Part shown: piece after piece, positions 242 to 50,775 of the stretch
How positions within the stretch are numbered: the first letter of the stretch is position 1
Layout of the letters: the number at the start of each line of letters is the position of its first letter
NCBI RefSeq assembly: GCF_002024165.1
Contig: NZ_MWQN01000001.1
Span: forward strand, 682,001 to 746,000
Length of the DNA: 64,000 nt
Reading direction: 5' to 3'
Source: Embleya scabrispora
Lineage (GTDB): Bacteria > Actinomycetota > Actinomycetes > Streptomycetales > Streptomycetaceae
The notes under the pieces: generated by a model
The model's database searches: none
What the model was told of the DNA's origin: nothing
The model's input: only the letters and a program-made list of their open reading frames with translations
Position numbers and translations under genes: made by a program

Positions 242-1132
242 CTACTCCGACCGCGGCTCCAGGTCCCGAAGCTCCGGGCGCTCCAGTCGCTGCGGGTCGG
301 CGAGGATGTTGATCTCGACGATCCTGTCGCCCACGATGGTGAAGTCCATGACCCCCATCGGCCGGCCGTTCGGCGCGGTGAACAACCCCGGGGAGCCGTT
401 GACCAGCACCGGCCGCGCGTACTGCGCCATCCGGGCGAAGGAGAGCGCCTGGGCGACCACCGCACGGGCGCCGCGCACGAGTTGCGACACCCCGAGCGCG
501 CCGTCCCCGGTGTCGGCGCGCAGCAGTACGTCGGGGTCGAGCAGATCCAGCAGGGCTTGGAAGTCGCCGCCGCGCGACGCCGCGAGGAACGCGTCCACCA
601 CCCGGCGCTGGCGCGGCAGATCGGGCTTGGGCGCCGTGCCCTGAACCCGACGGCGGGCCCGGCTGGCGAGCTGGCGCGTCGCGGCGGTGGACTTGTCCAC
701 GATCGGGGCGATGTCGTCGAACGGCATCGCGAACATGTCGTGCAGCACGAACGCGAGCCGCTCGGCCGGCGGCAACGTGTCCAGGACCACGAGCATGGCC
801 AACCCGACCGAGTCGGCCAGCACGGCCGACTCCTCGGGGTCGGCGCCGTCCACATCGGTCACGATCGGGTCCGGGACGTGCGTGTCCCACTCGTCCTCGC
901 GCCGGGACTTGCGCGAGCGCAACATGTCGAGGCACACCCGGCCGACCACCGTGGTCAGCCAACCCGCAAGGTTCTCCACGCCGGAGATGTCGGAACGATC
1001 CAGCCGCAGCCACGCCTCCTGCACGGCGTCCTCGGCCTCGCTGAGCGAACCGAGCATGCGATAGGCCACCGCCCGCAGATGCGCCCGGTTCTCCTCGAAC
1101 CGCTCGGTCACCAATCCCTGCTCCGGAATCAT
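242..1132 (-). CDS. ECF RNA polymerase sigma factor with C-terminal SnoaL-like domain (SigJ/ECF41-like)
   Basis: A 296-residue ECF sigma factor that would direct RNA polymerase to a small regulon. Region 2 (AYRMLGSLSEAEDAVQEAW, about residues 20-45) and region 4 (LPPAERLAFVLHDMFAMPF, about 125-170) are clear. A SnoaL/NTF2-like domain of about 110 residues follows, ending in 'GVMDFTIVGDRIVEINI'. In ECF41-like families this C-terminal domain modulates activity in place of a classical anti-sigma factor, and none is encoded next door. The ATG at 1132 is chosen because GGGAG sits 7 nt upstream; an in-frame ATG at 1162 has a weaker site. The exact ECF subgroup is uncertain. Confidence 0.88.
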   Translation of the reverse strand: MIPEQGLVTERFEENRAHLRAVAYRMLGSLSEAEDAVQEAWLRLDRSDISGVENLAGWLTTVVGRVCLDMLRSRKSRREDEWDTHVPDPIVTDVDGADPEESAVLADSVGLAMLVVLDTLPPAERLAFVLHDMFAMPFDDIAPIVDKSTAATRQLASRARRRVQGTAPKPDLPRQRRVVDAFLAASRGGDFQALLDLLDPDVLLRADTGDGALGVSQLVRGARAVVAQALSFARMAQYARPVLVNGSPGLFTAPNGRPMGVMDFTIVGDRIVEINILADPQRLERPELRDLEPRSE

Positions 1133-1442
1133 CCGCTTTCTCCCGTCCGGTTCCACCGCCATCACGATCACCGATTTCCAGACGATATGACACCAGCCCC
1201 CACGTCCCGAACAGCCCTCCCAACTCCCCGCGAATGCCTCGTCGGCCCCGCCTCCGAGCCGGGCGCGCCGATGCGCGGACGACGGTACGCCCGCCGCCGG
1301 AGGCCGGTCCGCGCAAACGGGACCACGAAGAACACCAGACCACGAAGAACACGGGACCACGAGAGAACGGGACCACGGGGACTACAGAGCCACGAGGGCC
1401 GTCCGGGCCGGGTGCCGCACCCGAAGGCCGAATCCGCCCGCT
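1133..1442. other. Intergenic region upstream of the sigma gene
   Basis: About 310 bp without a convincing gene. It should hold the sigma-factor promoter reading leftward. The only obvious structure is the imperfect direct repeat at 1319-1380, listed separately. Confidence 0.5.
1319..1380. repeat. Four imperfect direct repeats of GGGACCACGA(A/G)GAAC
   Basis: Successive units GGGACCACGAAGAAC, AGACCACGAAGAAC, GGGACCACGAGAGAAC and GGGACCACGGGGAC are spaced 15-18 bp apart. They lie 190-250 bp upstream of the sigma-factor start, in noncoding DNA. They could be iterated regulator-binding sites or simple slippage products. Confidence 0.6.
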
Positions 1443-1691: not shown

Positions 1692-1880
1692 CCCCGCACC
1701 CGCAACCACCGGCCGCCGGGGTGGATCGCGCGGCCGACGGCACCCGGATCTGCGGAAACGCTCATACACCCAAGCGTCGCACCACCCACACGGTCGCCCA
1801 CCCGAGACCGGGAATCCCGTGCGGGACGCCTCCGCGCCGCCGCGAAAAATGGATGTCGCGCACCCACCCCGCACGCCTAG

Positions 1881-1896
1881 GCTTCGAACGCGAAGC
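1881..1896. promoter_or_regulatory. Small hairpin just upstream of the first Y-like RNA
   Basis: GCTTCG-AACG-CGAAGC, a perfect 6-bp inverted repeat ending 6 nt before the basal stem of the first structured RNA. It overlaps a possible -10 (TAGGCT, 1878-1883). It may belong to the RNA 5' end or be a regulatory site. Confidence 0.35.
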
Positions 1897-1902
1897 AACG
1901 CA

Positions 1903-1987
1903 CCTCCCGGTGCGCAGACGAGCGGCTACTTCCTCTCCAGAAGTGGGACCTGGTCCCACCGCCGCGCGTCATCTCGATCTCGGGAGG
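1903..1987 (+). ncRNA. Y-like RNA 1 (Ro-type stem, no tRNA-like module)
   Basis: The region folds as a closed unit. The basal stem is CCTCCCG (1903-1909) with CGGGAGG (1981-1987). An internal loop follows, GTGCGCA on the 5' side and ATCTCGATCT on the 3' side. The second stem is GACG/CGTC plus GCGGC/GCCGC (1917-1926 with 1961-1970). At the top are two hairpins, ACTTC-7 nt-GAAGT (1928-1944) and TGGGA-5 nt-TCCCA (1944-1958). The internal loop and flanking CCCG/CGGG pairs recur almost unchanged in the next RNA. Bacterial Y RNAs bind the Ro homologue Rsr by such a stem and are often encoded beside rsr, which starts 186 nt downstream. True 5' and 3' ends are not visible. Confidence 0.72.
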
Positions 1988-1989
1988 AT

Positions 1990-2141
1990 CAACGTCGGGG
2001 TGCCCGGTGCGCAGACCGGGAATTCTTCCTTCGAATGGGGTGGTCCCGGGTTCGAATCCCGGTCGCCGGTCAGCCGGTGGTAGCTCAGCGGTAGAGCACC
2101 TTGAAAGCCCGGTCGCCTCGATCTCGGGCACCTCGACGTTG
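1990..2141 (+). ncRNA. Y RNA (YrlA-like) with circularly permuted tRNA-like module
   Basis: The basal stem is 17 bp: CAACGTCGGGGTGCCCG (1990-2006) with 2125-2141, one G-U pair. The shared internal loop comes next (GTGCGCA / GCCTCGATCT), then GACCGGG/CCCGGTC (2014-2020 with 2108-2114) and a small hairpin (2022-2036). Then come tRNA parts in permuted order: T-arm CCGGG-TTCGAAT-CCCGG (2046-2062); acceptor stem TCGCCGG (2063-2069) closed by a TCAG loop onto CCGGTGG (2074-2080); TA; and D-arm GCTC-AGCGGTA-GAGC (2083-2097). The loop bases that join D and T loops in tRNA (GG of the D loop, TTC of the T loop) are kept. This is the architecture described for bacterial YrlA RNAs, which tether effectors to Rsr. 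rsr begins 32 nt downstream. Confidence 0.85.
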
Positions 2142-2172
2142 TCGCCTCCCCCACATTCCACGGGGGATCACC

Positions 2173-3810
2173 ATGTCTCGATTCAACCTGCCCCGAGTCC
2201 GCTCGGCCGCCGTCTCGCCGGTGCGCGGCACGGGCTCGAAGACCGTCACCCACGAGGGCGGCACCGGTTACACCCGCGACGCGCGCAGTGAGTTGTTCCT
2301 GCTCGCGGTGGCGAACTTCGTCGGCACCGACACGTTCTACGAGAGCGGCGGCACCCGCGACGACCGGTTCACCCAGCTCGTCCACGAACTGGCGGTGTAC
2401 GACGGCGAATGGCTGCTCGGCCTGCTCACCTGGCTGCGCCGGGACGCGAACATGCGCACCGCCGCCATCGTCGGCGCCGCCGAAATGACGCGCGCCCGGC
2501 TGGAGTTCGGGCTGCCGGGCCTGTCCCGCCGGGCGGTGGACGCGGTGTTGCGCCGCGCCGACGAGCCCGGCGAGCTGCTGGGTTATTGGACCTCGCGGTA
2601 CGGCCGGGCCATTCCCAAGCCGATCAAGCGCGGCATCGAGGACGCCGTGCGCCGGCTGTACACCTCGCACGCGCTGCTCAAGTACGACACCGCGAGCAAG
2701 GGCTACCGCTTCGCCGACGTGCTCAACCTGACCCACCCGCGTCCGGCGGCCGACAAGCCGTGGCAGGGCGCGCTGTTCGGCTACGCGCTCGACCGCCGGC
2801 ACCACCCCGACACGGCGACCCCGCCGGCGTCGGATCCGGTGCTCACCGCGCGCGCCGAGCTGATGGCCGTGCCCGCCGCCGAGCGCGCGGCGCTGCTGCG
2901 CACGCCCGACGCGGCCGAGCGGCTGCGCGCCGCCGGCATCACCTGGGAGGCGCTGGCGGGTTGGCTGCGGGGGCCGATGGACGCGGCCGCGTGGTCGGCG
3001 GTGATTCCGTCGATGGGCTACATGGCGCTGCTGCGCAACCTGCGCAACTTCGACGAGGCCGGTGTCGACGACGTCCTCGCCGCGCAGGTCGCGGCTCGGC
3101 TGGCGGACCCCGAAGAGGTCGCGCGTTCGCGGCAGTTGCCGTTCCGGTTCCTGTCCGCGCATCGCGCCGCGCCGTCGCTGCGCTGGGCGTACGCGCTGGA
3201 GCAGGCGCTCGGTCACGCGCTGGCGAACGTCCCGAAGCTGCCCGGGCAGACGCTGATCCTGGTGGACACCAGTTCCAGCATGGAGTCGGGCTTCTCCCGG
3301 GACGGCACGCTGATGCGCTGGGACGCGGCGGCCCTGTTCGGCATCGCGCTCGGTCAGCGCTGCGGGTACGCCGACGTGGTGTCCTTCTCGAGCACCCGGC
3401 GGTATTGGGAGGACAAGCCCGGCGCACACACGAAGACCTATCCGATGCGTCGCGGCGAGTCGTTGCTGCGCTCGCTGGAGCGTTGGAAGCAGGACGGCTA
3501 CTTCCTGGGCGGCGGCACCGACACCGCCCTGGCGCTGCGTCGGGAGTATCGGGCGCACGACCGGGTGCTGATCGTCACCGACGAGCAGGCCGGGCCCGAC
3601 ACCCGCGAGGTGACCGAGTCCATCCCGGAGAACATTCCGCTGTACACCTGGAATCTGGCCGGCTACCAGGCCGGGCACACCCCGTCGGGCAGCCGCAACC
3701 GGCATACCTTCGGCGGCCTGACCGACGCCGCGTTCACGATGATCCCGCTCCTGGAGGCGGGCCGGGACGCACGGTGGCCGTGGGAGGCGACGGCCGGCAC
3801 CGCGGCCTGA
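2173..3810 (+). CDS. rsr: Ro60 homologue Rsr (TROVE domain plus von Willebrand A domain)
   Basis: A 545-residue RNA-binding ring protein of the Ro60/TROVE family. The N-terminal three-fifths is the helical-repeat TROVE region, including 'LFLLAVANFVGTDTFYE', 'ELAVYDGEWLLGLLTWLRRD' and 'GRAIPKPIKRGIEDAVR'. The C-terminal vWA domain has the metal site DTSSS at residues 365-369. Such proteins bind Y RNAs and the ends of misfolded RNAs and can gate RNA to nucleases such as PNPase. The ATG at 2173 follows GGGGG by 6 nt. Two Y-like RNAs lie directly upstream on the same strand, which strongly supports the assignment. Length is typical for the bacterial family. Confidence 0.95.
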   Translation: MSRFNLPRVRSAAVSPVRGTGSKTVTHEGGTGYTRDARSELFLLAVANFVGTDTFYESGGTRDDRFTQLVHELAVYDGEWLLGLLTWLRRDANMRTAAIVGAAEMTRARLEFGLPGLSRRAVDAVLRRADEPGELLGYWTSRYGRAIPKPIKRGIEDAVRRLYTSHALLKYDTASKGYRFADVLNLTHPRPAADKPWQGALFGYALDRRHHPDTATPPASDPVLTARAELMAVPAAERAALLRTPDAAERLRAAGITWEALAGWLRGPMDAAAWSAVIPSMGYMALLRNLRNFDEAGVDDVLAAQVAARLADPEEVARSRQLPFRFLSAHRAAPSLRWAYALEQALGHALANVPKLPGQTLILVDTSSSMESGFSRDGTLMRWDAAALFGIALGQRCGYADVVSFSSTRRYWEDKPGAHTKTYPMRRGESLLRSLERWKQDGYFLGGGTDTALALRREYRAHDRVLIVTDEQAGPDTREVTESIPENIPLYTWNLAGYQAGHTPSGSRNRHTFGGLTDAAFTMIPLLEAGRDARWPWEATAGTAA

Positions 3811-50269: not shown

Positions 50270-50775
50270 ATGCGGGGGCCGGATCGGGACTGCGCGTCAC
50301 ACCGGGGTTGGGTCGGGCTGCGGCGTCGCACCGGGGTTGGGTCGGGCTGCGGCGTCGCACCGGGGTTGGGTCGGGACCGCAGCATCGCACCCGACCCAAG
50401 GTGGGACCGGAGCATCACGCCCGACCCAACGCGGGACCGCAGCGTCACGCCCGACCCAAAGCGGGACCGCAGCGTCACACCCGACCCAAAGCGGGACCGC
50501 AGCGTCACACCCGACCCAACGCGGAACCGCAGCATCACACCGGGCCCGAATCGGAACCGCAGCATCACACCCGACCCAACGCGGAACCGCAGCATCACAC
50601 CGGGCCCGAATCGGAACCGCAGCGTCACACCGGGCCCGAATCGGAACCGCAGCGTCACACCGGGCCCGAATCGGAACCGCAGCATCACACCGACCCAACG
50701 CGGAACCGCAGCATCACACCCGACCCAACGCGGAACCGCAGCATCACACCGGGCCCGAATCGGAACCGCAGCGTT
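50270..50775. repeat. Inverted pair of ~30-bp tandem repeat arrays
   Basis: Three ~29-bp units containing GGGGTTGGGTCGGGCTGCGGC (50315-50375) are followed by about thirteen 30-bp units containing CCCGACCCAA or CGGGCCCGAAT plus CGGAACCGCAGC. GTTGGGTCGGG in the first set is the reverse complement of CCCGACCCAAC in the second, so the array switches orientation near 50375. Two unit types alternate in the second part. Thirty being a multiple of three, all frames stay open and give 10-residue peptide repeats that are not credible proteins. Confidence 0.92.

Follow-up and report, generated by a model that had tools for sequence, protein, structure and literature searches.

The window, the whole 64,000-nucleotide stretch of the Embleya scabrispora genome analysed here, carries near its start a gene for the Ro60 orthologue Rsr, and between this gene and an upstream neighbour on the opposite strand lie two tandem hairpins that we read as Y RNAs, the second of which bears a tRNA-like head. 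The features of the locus are the following, with what supports them in brackets.

242-1360, minus strand: gene for a sigma-70 family factor (Pfam regions 2 and 4)
1878-1883, plus strand: -10-like TAGGCT ahead of the upstream Y hairpin, a putative promoter for array and rsr (TANNNT statistics)
1900-1990, plus strand: predicted headless Y RNA (fold, match to covariance model R3, repeats of the downstream Y RNA)
1903-1909/1981-1987, plus strand: outer stem of the headless Y RNA
1910-1916 and 1974-1980, plus strand: its loop motifs GUGCGCA and UCGAUCU
1917-1925/1962-1970, plus strand: its inner stem
1926-1932, plus strand: its CUACUUC
1990-2141, plus strand: predicted YrlA-type Y RNA with tRNA-like head (fold, Rfam YrlA match, covariation, R3 match)
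1990-2006, plus strand: 5' arm of its basal stem, partner of 2125-2141 (inverted-repeat reading)
2007-2013, plus strand: GUGCGCA internal-loop motif, likely part of an Rsr site (common to both hairpins)
2014-2020, plus strand: 5' arm of the inner 7-bp stem, partner of 2108-2114 (fold and inverted repeat)
2022-2028, plus strand: AUUCUUC, the headed RNA's version of the THCUUC motif, where H is A, C or U (fixed spacing from GUGCG)
2046-2062, plus strand: T-arm CCGGG-UUCGAAU-CCCGG, in DNA CCGGG TTCGAAT CCCGG (direct reading, covariation)
2063-2080, plus strand: acceptor stem in permuted order with UCAG (TCAG) tetraloop at 2070-2073 (direct reading, covariation)
2081-2097, plus strand: UA at 2081-2082 (tRNA positions 8-9) and D-arm GCUC-AGCGGUA-GAGC at 2083-2097 (direct reading, covariation)
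2118-2124, plus strand: UCGAUCU 3' internal-loop motif (direct reading, repeat and pattern search)
2125-2141, plus strand: 3' arm of the basal stem, partner of 1990-2006 (inverted-repeat reading)
2147-2167, plus strand: UCCCCC/GGGGGA hairpin over the rsr ribosome-binding site (z -1.26 in the window, suggestive only)
2173-3810, plus strand: rsr, Ro60 orthologue with TROVE domain, 545 aa (PF05731, phmmer, relatives)

The identity of the downstream gene as a Ro homologue, proposed in an earlier sequence-only reading of this DNA, is borne out: the protein matches Pfam PF05731 with 57.2 bits (cut-off 23, E 2.2e-15) in a match limited to residues 270-332, aligns with solved TROVE proteins by phmmer (E 7.6e-29), and is 96% identical to an Embleya hyalina protein. 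That reading also placed rsr downstream of the headed RNA, which is correct, at a distance of 32 nt, which is in fact 31 nt from 2141 to the ATG at 2173. It delimited the feature as 1990-2141, and this holds for the headed RNA, but the array is longer, as the second Y hairpin at 1900-1990 and the promoter-like site had been overlooked.

Structure of the headed RNA

Each part of the head described earlier, namely T-arm, TCAG-closed acceptor, TA and D-arm in permuted order, can be read directly in the sequence, and so can the long stem of 17 bp and 7 bp around an internal loop. The two arms of the basal stem, 17 nt each, are 94% complementary with a single odd pair that is a G.U, the inner 7 bp flank the internal loop (GUGCGCA and the GCCUCGAUCU region), and the acceptor stem (2063-2069/2074-2080) has 7 bp with two wobble pairs. 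The predicted minimum free energy is -84.5 kcal/mol (z -3.99), a stability equalled by 0 of 200 shuffles, and 5 of the 7 acceptor pairs form in the single-sequence fold. Measured by its stem ends the RNA is 152 nt long, and bacterial Y RNAs are given as about 90-150 nt in the available part of PMC8394870.

Conservation and covariation

Relatives were drawn from 37 loci encoding relatives of the window Rsr and from L001, the other rsr locus that this genome carries, and 23 headed RNAs from these sources, including that of the window, were aligned. RNAalifold recovered the T-arm, acceptor, D-arm and basal stem from this alignment without a prior structure, and 96.0% of the cells are paired, compared with 35-50% in slid controls. 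Relatives had been named at the outset as the place to look for compensatory changes, and each of the model's four helices has them, with 19 of 30 pairs changed on both sides; the basal stem (helix 1) is 95% paired and has 7 of 13 pairs doubly changed, and the acceptor (helix 3) has double changes in 7 of 8. The covariance model R3, built from 18 related RNAs with the window, E. hyalina, E. scabrispora and L001 sequences excluded, matches the headed window RNA over its whole length with 111.1 bits and an E-value of 1e-24, E-values of such models being rough. A weak additional match in the window lies at 50599-50670 on the minus strand (18.5 bits, E 0.01). Structure, conservation and linkage to rsr are what the analysis shows for the window RNAs.

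The headless RNA has the core of the headed RNA without the tRNA head, and shares with it 14 nt (CCCGGTGCGCAGAC) and the CTCGATCTCGG loop (repeats D1 and D2). R3, which was trained without Embleya sequences, matches it with 42.1 bits (E 2.5e-8), and its fold has a z of -2.43, with 3 of 200 shuffles as stable. Headless relatives are found in 16 other loci, and in the resulting alignment A2 (17 sequences) GCACCUCCCGGUGCG and GAUCUCGGGAGG are nearly invariant, so that this stem is held at the level of sequence, unlike the covarying basal stem of the headed RNA; GGUGCG is invariant in both alignments, A1 and A2. The conserved stem (window 1900-1914 and 1976-1987) includes an unpaired GCA. The headless RNA could instead form a GCACC-UCCC-GGUGC hairpin that exposes GGGAGG, and these columns too are nearly invariant in A2.

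In the window's own genome of 10.96 Mb, model R1 has five matches. Four are full-length and fall on the two rsr loci; the fifth is partial. The second rsr locus (L001 235-614, at about 6.311 Mb of contig C1) has three Y hairpins, two of which are tRNA-headed. Across 293 genomes of the order, among the matches listed, TROVE is present in 159 and a strong R1 match (E <= 1e-9) in 152, with both in 149, TROVE only in 10, R1 only in 3 and neither in 131; the search filters lose weak matches, which bears on the 10 of 159 TROVE genomes that have no strong R1 match. Among 150 listed strong R1 matches, 118 are followed on their own strand by a listed TROVE match no more than 4 kb downstream. The remaining 32 include 27 that have no TROVE on the same contig among the matches listed, and in seven of the 32 that were examined rsr adjoins in three (L087, L088, L090) and not in four (L084-L086, L092).

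Class assignment

The Rfam YrlA model (RF02553), which had been suggested as a check, gives a full-length match to the headed RNA with 34.8 bits and E 6e-6; the match is there, but the gathering cut-off of 69 bits is not reached, and for this reason the RNA is filed only in the wider YrlA-type class. A YrlA match at gathering level is likewise absent in 20 of the 39 actinomycete sources and in nine phage and plasmid stretches. The two ends of the RNA pair in a long stem, this stem carries a domain of T-arm, acceptor and D-arm, and rsr adjoins; together with the arm order, the TROVE linkage, the four-helix covariation and the sub-threshold Rfam match, these features uphold the earlier assignment, and we place the headed window RNA, by sequence and predicted structure, among the bacterial Y RNAs of YrlA type, as a new member of a class already known. 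Features of a canonical tRNA are absent in that the acceptor is closed by TCAG and the arms are permuted, and the Rfam tRNA model reaches 13.6 bits against a cut-off of 29. Weak Rfam matches to p27_CRE, plastid elements and a magnesium riboswitch were set aside, all being far under their cut-offs.

It had been expected that a tRNA finder would miss this RNA. The real structure does go unreported, yet the result is not a plain miss, as ARAGORN gives a spurious tRNA-Ser(cga) at 2004-2071. This prediction is what would favour a true tRNA-Ser gene at this place, or a decayed or rearranged pair of tRNA genes such as a tandem tRNA junction, and tandem tRNA-Asn pairs do resemble the permuted head, reaching 47-51 bits with R1 in six genomes; but these pairs cover model positions 32-128 alone, without the basal stem, whereas the window RNA covers the whole model, the acceptor of the headed RNA is tetraloop-closed and covaries among relatives, the genome has a tRNA-Ser(cga) gene elsewhere, and full-length conservation already contradicts a tRNA-gene reading, which leaves this explanation with a negligible probability. 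The ordinary tRNA-Ser was rejected, since the predicted gene fuses the basal stem with the T-arm, which is not how the structure as a whole is conserved. False predictions of this kind could mislead annotation. The tRNA-Asn matches in question (L078-L083) overlap tandem tRNA-Asn genes, and they suggest how neighbouring tRNA genes could yield a permuted head. Compared with the genome's tRNAs in permuted order, the window head fits a His/Met/Gly group best and no single tRNA.

Y RNA arrays before rsr

A pattern finder based on loop motifs and complementarity, in which the THCUUC motif is not among the criteria, finds 76 units in 38 upstream regions at a threshold of 8, compared with 0-2 per dinucleotide shuffle (n = 5) and 1 on the reverse strand. 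At a threshold of 9.5, THCUUC lies 16-18 nt after the start of GUGCG in 57 of 57 units, and the combined pattern occurs 20 times beyond 800 nt before rsr or on the opposite strand, in 604,480 strand-bases. Models R1 and R2 together identify one to five units in 38 of 39 sources (1, 2, 3, 4 and 5 units in 3, 18, 10, 6 and 1 sources), the one empty source being L067; 97 of the 98 units contain the THCUUC motif. These counts omit seven R1 matches, namely four in L041 and one in L065 that overlap tRNA genes or junctions and two in L066, as well as R2 matches that overlap R1 and those units of L039 and L045 that lie over 1300 nt away from rsr. At actinomycete rsr loci, headed and headless Y RNAs that share one core often stand in arrays.

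In 28 of 38 sources the 25 nt that precede the first unit contain a TANNNT sequence, compared with 1 of 38 for the adjoining segment further upstream and 1 of 60 for internal units; in the other 10 sources it was not found before the first unit. Its position before the first hairpin only suggests a single transcript for array and rsr, and the window RNAs are predicted to be transcribed. Equivalents of the hairpin over the ribosome-binding site have a mean z of -1.25, with 17 of 36 loci below -1; this hairpin, which is sometimes followed by a U run, points to a possible control of rsr translation. In Streptomyces netropsis (L051) a very strong hairpin, with a region z of -7.2, stands between the Y array and rsr.

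Headed Y RNAs away from rsr, in phages and on plasmids

Five further stretches were examined in addition to the four where rsr does not adjoin and the three where it does (one from G037, two from the rsr-poor G072, and one each from G161 and G240). Seven stretches of 4.5-9 kb (L084-L086 and L092-L095) each hold a headed Y RNA in full length (R1 63-112 bits, R3 69-120 bits), and Rsr has no match in them better than E 0.97. Judged by eye, TANNNT precedes the stem in 6 of these 7 rsr-free loci, and several have a strong inverted repeat after the stem. Three of the seven genomes have no intact rsr that we could find, G072 and G240 having fragments only and G161 none. In G072 (L091 1950-2620) a headless Y hairpin is still recognisable beside decayed rsr fragments. 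The heads of L084-L086 and of the proximal L040 RNA fit tRNA-Glu best when compared with the window genome's permuted tRNAs, with Cys close behind for L085; the D-arms of L094 and L095 look Ser- or Leu-like by eye, and the tRNA comparison did not single these out.

Y RNAs therefore need not be rsr leaders, and this bears on the proposal that the hairpins act mainly in cis, with Rsr binding its own leader, the 2147-2167 hairpin switching translation, and no free Y RNA being made. Such a leader would agree with the array's place immediately ahead of rsr, with a -10-like site at the first hairpin only, and with a hairpin across the ribosome-binding site at many loci. We nevertheless consider it improbable, for the relatives far from rsr, by eye, mostly have a -10-like site of their own and in several cases the downstream inverted repeat, the tRNA head is conserved with compensation that a leader switch has no need for, and the signal of the ribosome-site hairpin is weak, falling below -1 in fewer than half of the loci. 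The reading of the hairpins as Y RNAs remains the preferred one.

R1 also matches in four actinobacteriophages and in a Rhodococcus plasmid, all of which carry a gene of Ro-like or TROVE type. In the four phages, which infect Streptomyces, Gordonia and Arthrobacter, the R1 matches and TACTTC hairpins (by eye) stand beside the Ro-like gene as in the window, but the scores are lower than in the window and the 3' loop motif differs by eye. All four phage stretches hold tRNA genes, two in L152 and more in the others. At L041 33-2040, at L065 1840-2083 and in the phages (L151-L154), rsr and Y RNAs adjoin tRNA genes, often in runs, and this neighbourhood hints at phage exchange. By eye, a Rhizobium plasmid (L158 3050-3510) has four Y-like repeats between rsr and rtcB, with a variant of the core motif.

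Tandem permuted tRNA heads beside a DUF7873 gene

The fifth R1 match in the window's genome (C1:1245492-1245574, minus strand, partial) falls on a different permuted tRNA-like RNA. A tRNA-Phe gene was considered as its source and rejected, since the ARAGORN prediction (L073 1694-1785) does not overlap the match (1501-1583); prediction and match fall on two permuted-tRNA RNAs, so that ARAGORN mislabels part of this locus as tRNA-Phe. The locus lies at about 1.2455 Mb of C1, on the minus strand and 0.56 Mb away (L160 9484-10549), and has two features.

L160 9484-9777, minus strand: two tandem permuted tRNA heads (R3 35.3 and 29.1 bits)
L160 9803-10549, minus strand: DUF7873 gene, directly upstream of the RNAs (PF25283, E 5.6e-119)

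There is no rsr at this locus, inspection by eye shows no THCUUC core of the rsr type, and the Rfam YrlA model gives 38.7 bits, below the cut-off of 69. PF25283 is present in 139 of 293 genomes, and a 351-base query has matches in 34 of 60. In the 60 shared genomes protein and RNA occur together in 33, the protein only in one (G022), the RNA only in one (G001) and neither in 25; the G001 match is weak and falls on an rsr-linked Y RNA. Nine of the 33 genomes with both have no TROVE among the matches listed. The DUF7873 gene is directly upstream of the RNAs in 24 of 24 loci examined (22 distinct), and in 22 aligned sequences 97.6% of the cells of the two heads are paired, compared with 42-50% in slid controls, with 19 of 31 pairs doubly changed; in the second head this applies to each of the 7 acceptor pairs. 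In this alignment the first head has no T-arm and no acceptor in L179 and L180, a measure of further pair types is reached by 44 of 500 shuffles, and folded as single sequences the RNAs do not stand out (z -1.14 and -1.03).

Among phages, 72 records contain DUF7873 (Vibrio, Gordonia, Rhizobium, Klebsiella and others). In the three that were examined, Mimi, GodonK and NiceHouse, a pair of similar heads can be made out by eye after the gene, with R3 scores of 22-32 bits and, in two of the three, sub-threshold Rfam YrlA matches. The protein has no PDB relative by sequence and no PHROG or NCBIfam family, and a partial literature search found no mention of DUF7873 or PF25283. Gene and tandem RNAs are conserved together across the order and in the three phages examined, independent of rsr. 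Permuted heads may therefore not be partners of Rsr only, and the neighbourhood suggests that DUF7873 would bind the adjoining RNAs. Whether permuted tRNA heads form a general module of several RNA-protein machines, with DUF7873 as a new kind of tRNA-mimic-binding protein, is a question on which we are evenly divided. If so, these heads, which are also found on rsr-distant Y RNAs and in some cases are of Glu type, serve beyond Rsr.

Interpretation and comparison with known systems

The hairpins upstream of rsr are very probably two tandem bacterial Y RNAs, YrlA-type at 1990-2141 and headless at 1900-1990. A single promoter would probably give rise to both, within the leader of the rsr mRNA, from which they would then be processed; the seven headed Y RNAs away from rsr and the 10 of 38 sources that have no -10-like site speak against this. 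In the headed RNA the basal stem and the internal loop would hold Rsr, as the conservation of that loop suggests, and the head would be a circularly permuted partial tRNA in which the Y stem replaces the anticodon arm. Its closed acceptor should be incapable of aminoacylation, and by analogy with published systems enzymes that act on tRNA may recognise it. As in Deinococcus, the Y RNA may tether Rsr to PNPase and gate its substrates. The window adds to the class a structure-supported Y RNA pair from the Streptomycetaceae that is under the curated Rfam threshold and mislabelled as tRNA by ARAGORN; the larger value lies in the rsr-distant Y RNAs and the DUF7873 locus, which make the purpose of the tRNA mimic and its need for Ro/Rsr testable.

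The verdict of a known class rests on the features that the window RNAs share with published YrlA, RYPER and Salmonella Y RNAs; for Streptomyces Y RNA arrays, a partial literature search found no publication on the subject by title. Chen in 2014 reportedly described at least one Y RNA with a tRNA-like domain per species. The Y RNA of Deinococcus radiodurans lies upstream of rsr, as in the window. YrlA (RF02553), known from Salmonella and Mycobacterium smegmatis, has the same order of T-arm, closed acceptor and D-arm on a stem and also adjoins rsr, but it lies between rsr and rtcB, whereas the window RNA is upstream of rsr, and its Rfam consensus AUGC...GgaaCUAc is replaced in the window RNA by GUGCG...nUHCUUC. 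The rsr-yrlBA-rtcBA locus of Salmonella, as presented in the accessible part of PMC7790460, resembles the window in having two tandem Y RNAs next to rsr, of which YrlA has the tRNA-like domain, and differs in that they are downstream of the gene. In YrlA-type RNAs the basal stem binds Rsr, and DusA and TruB modify the tRNA-like domain, according to the available portion of PMC8394870, and in the accessible text of PMC4726728 Rsr, Y RNA and PNPase make up RYPER. The lower stem of the Deinococcus radiodurans Y RNA binds Rsr in the available text of the same source, and a lower stem is present in the window RNA too, the two being set side by side by description.
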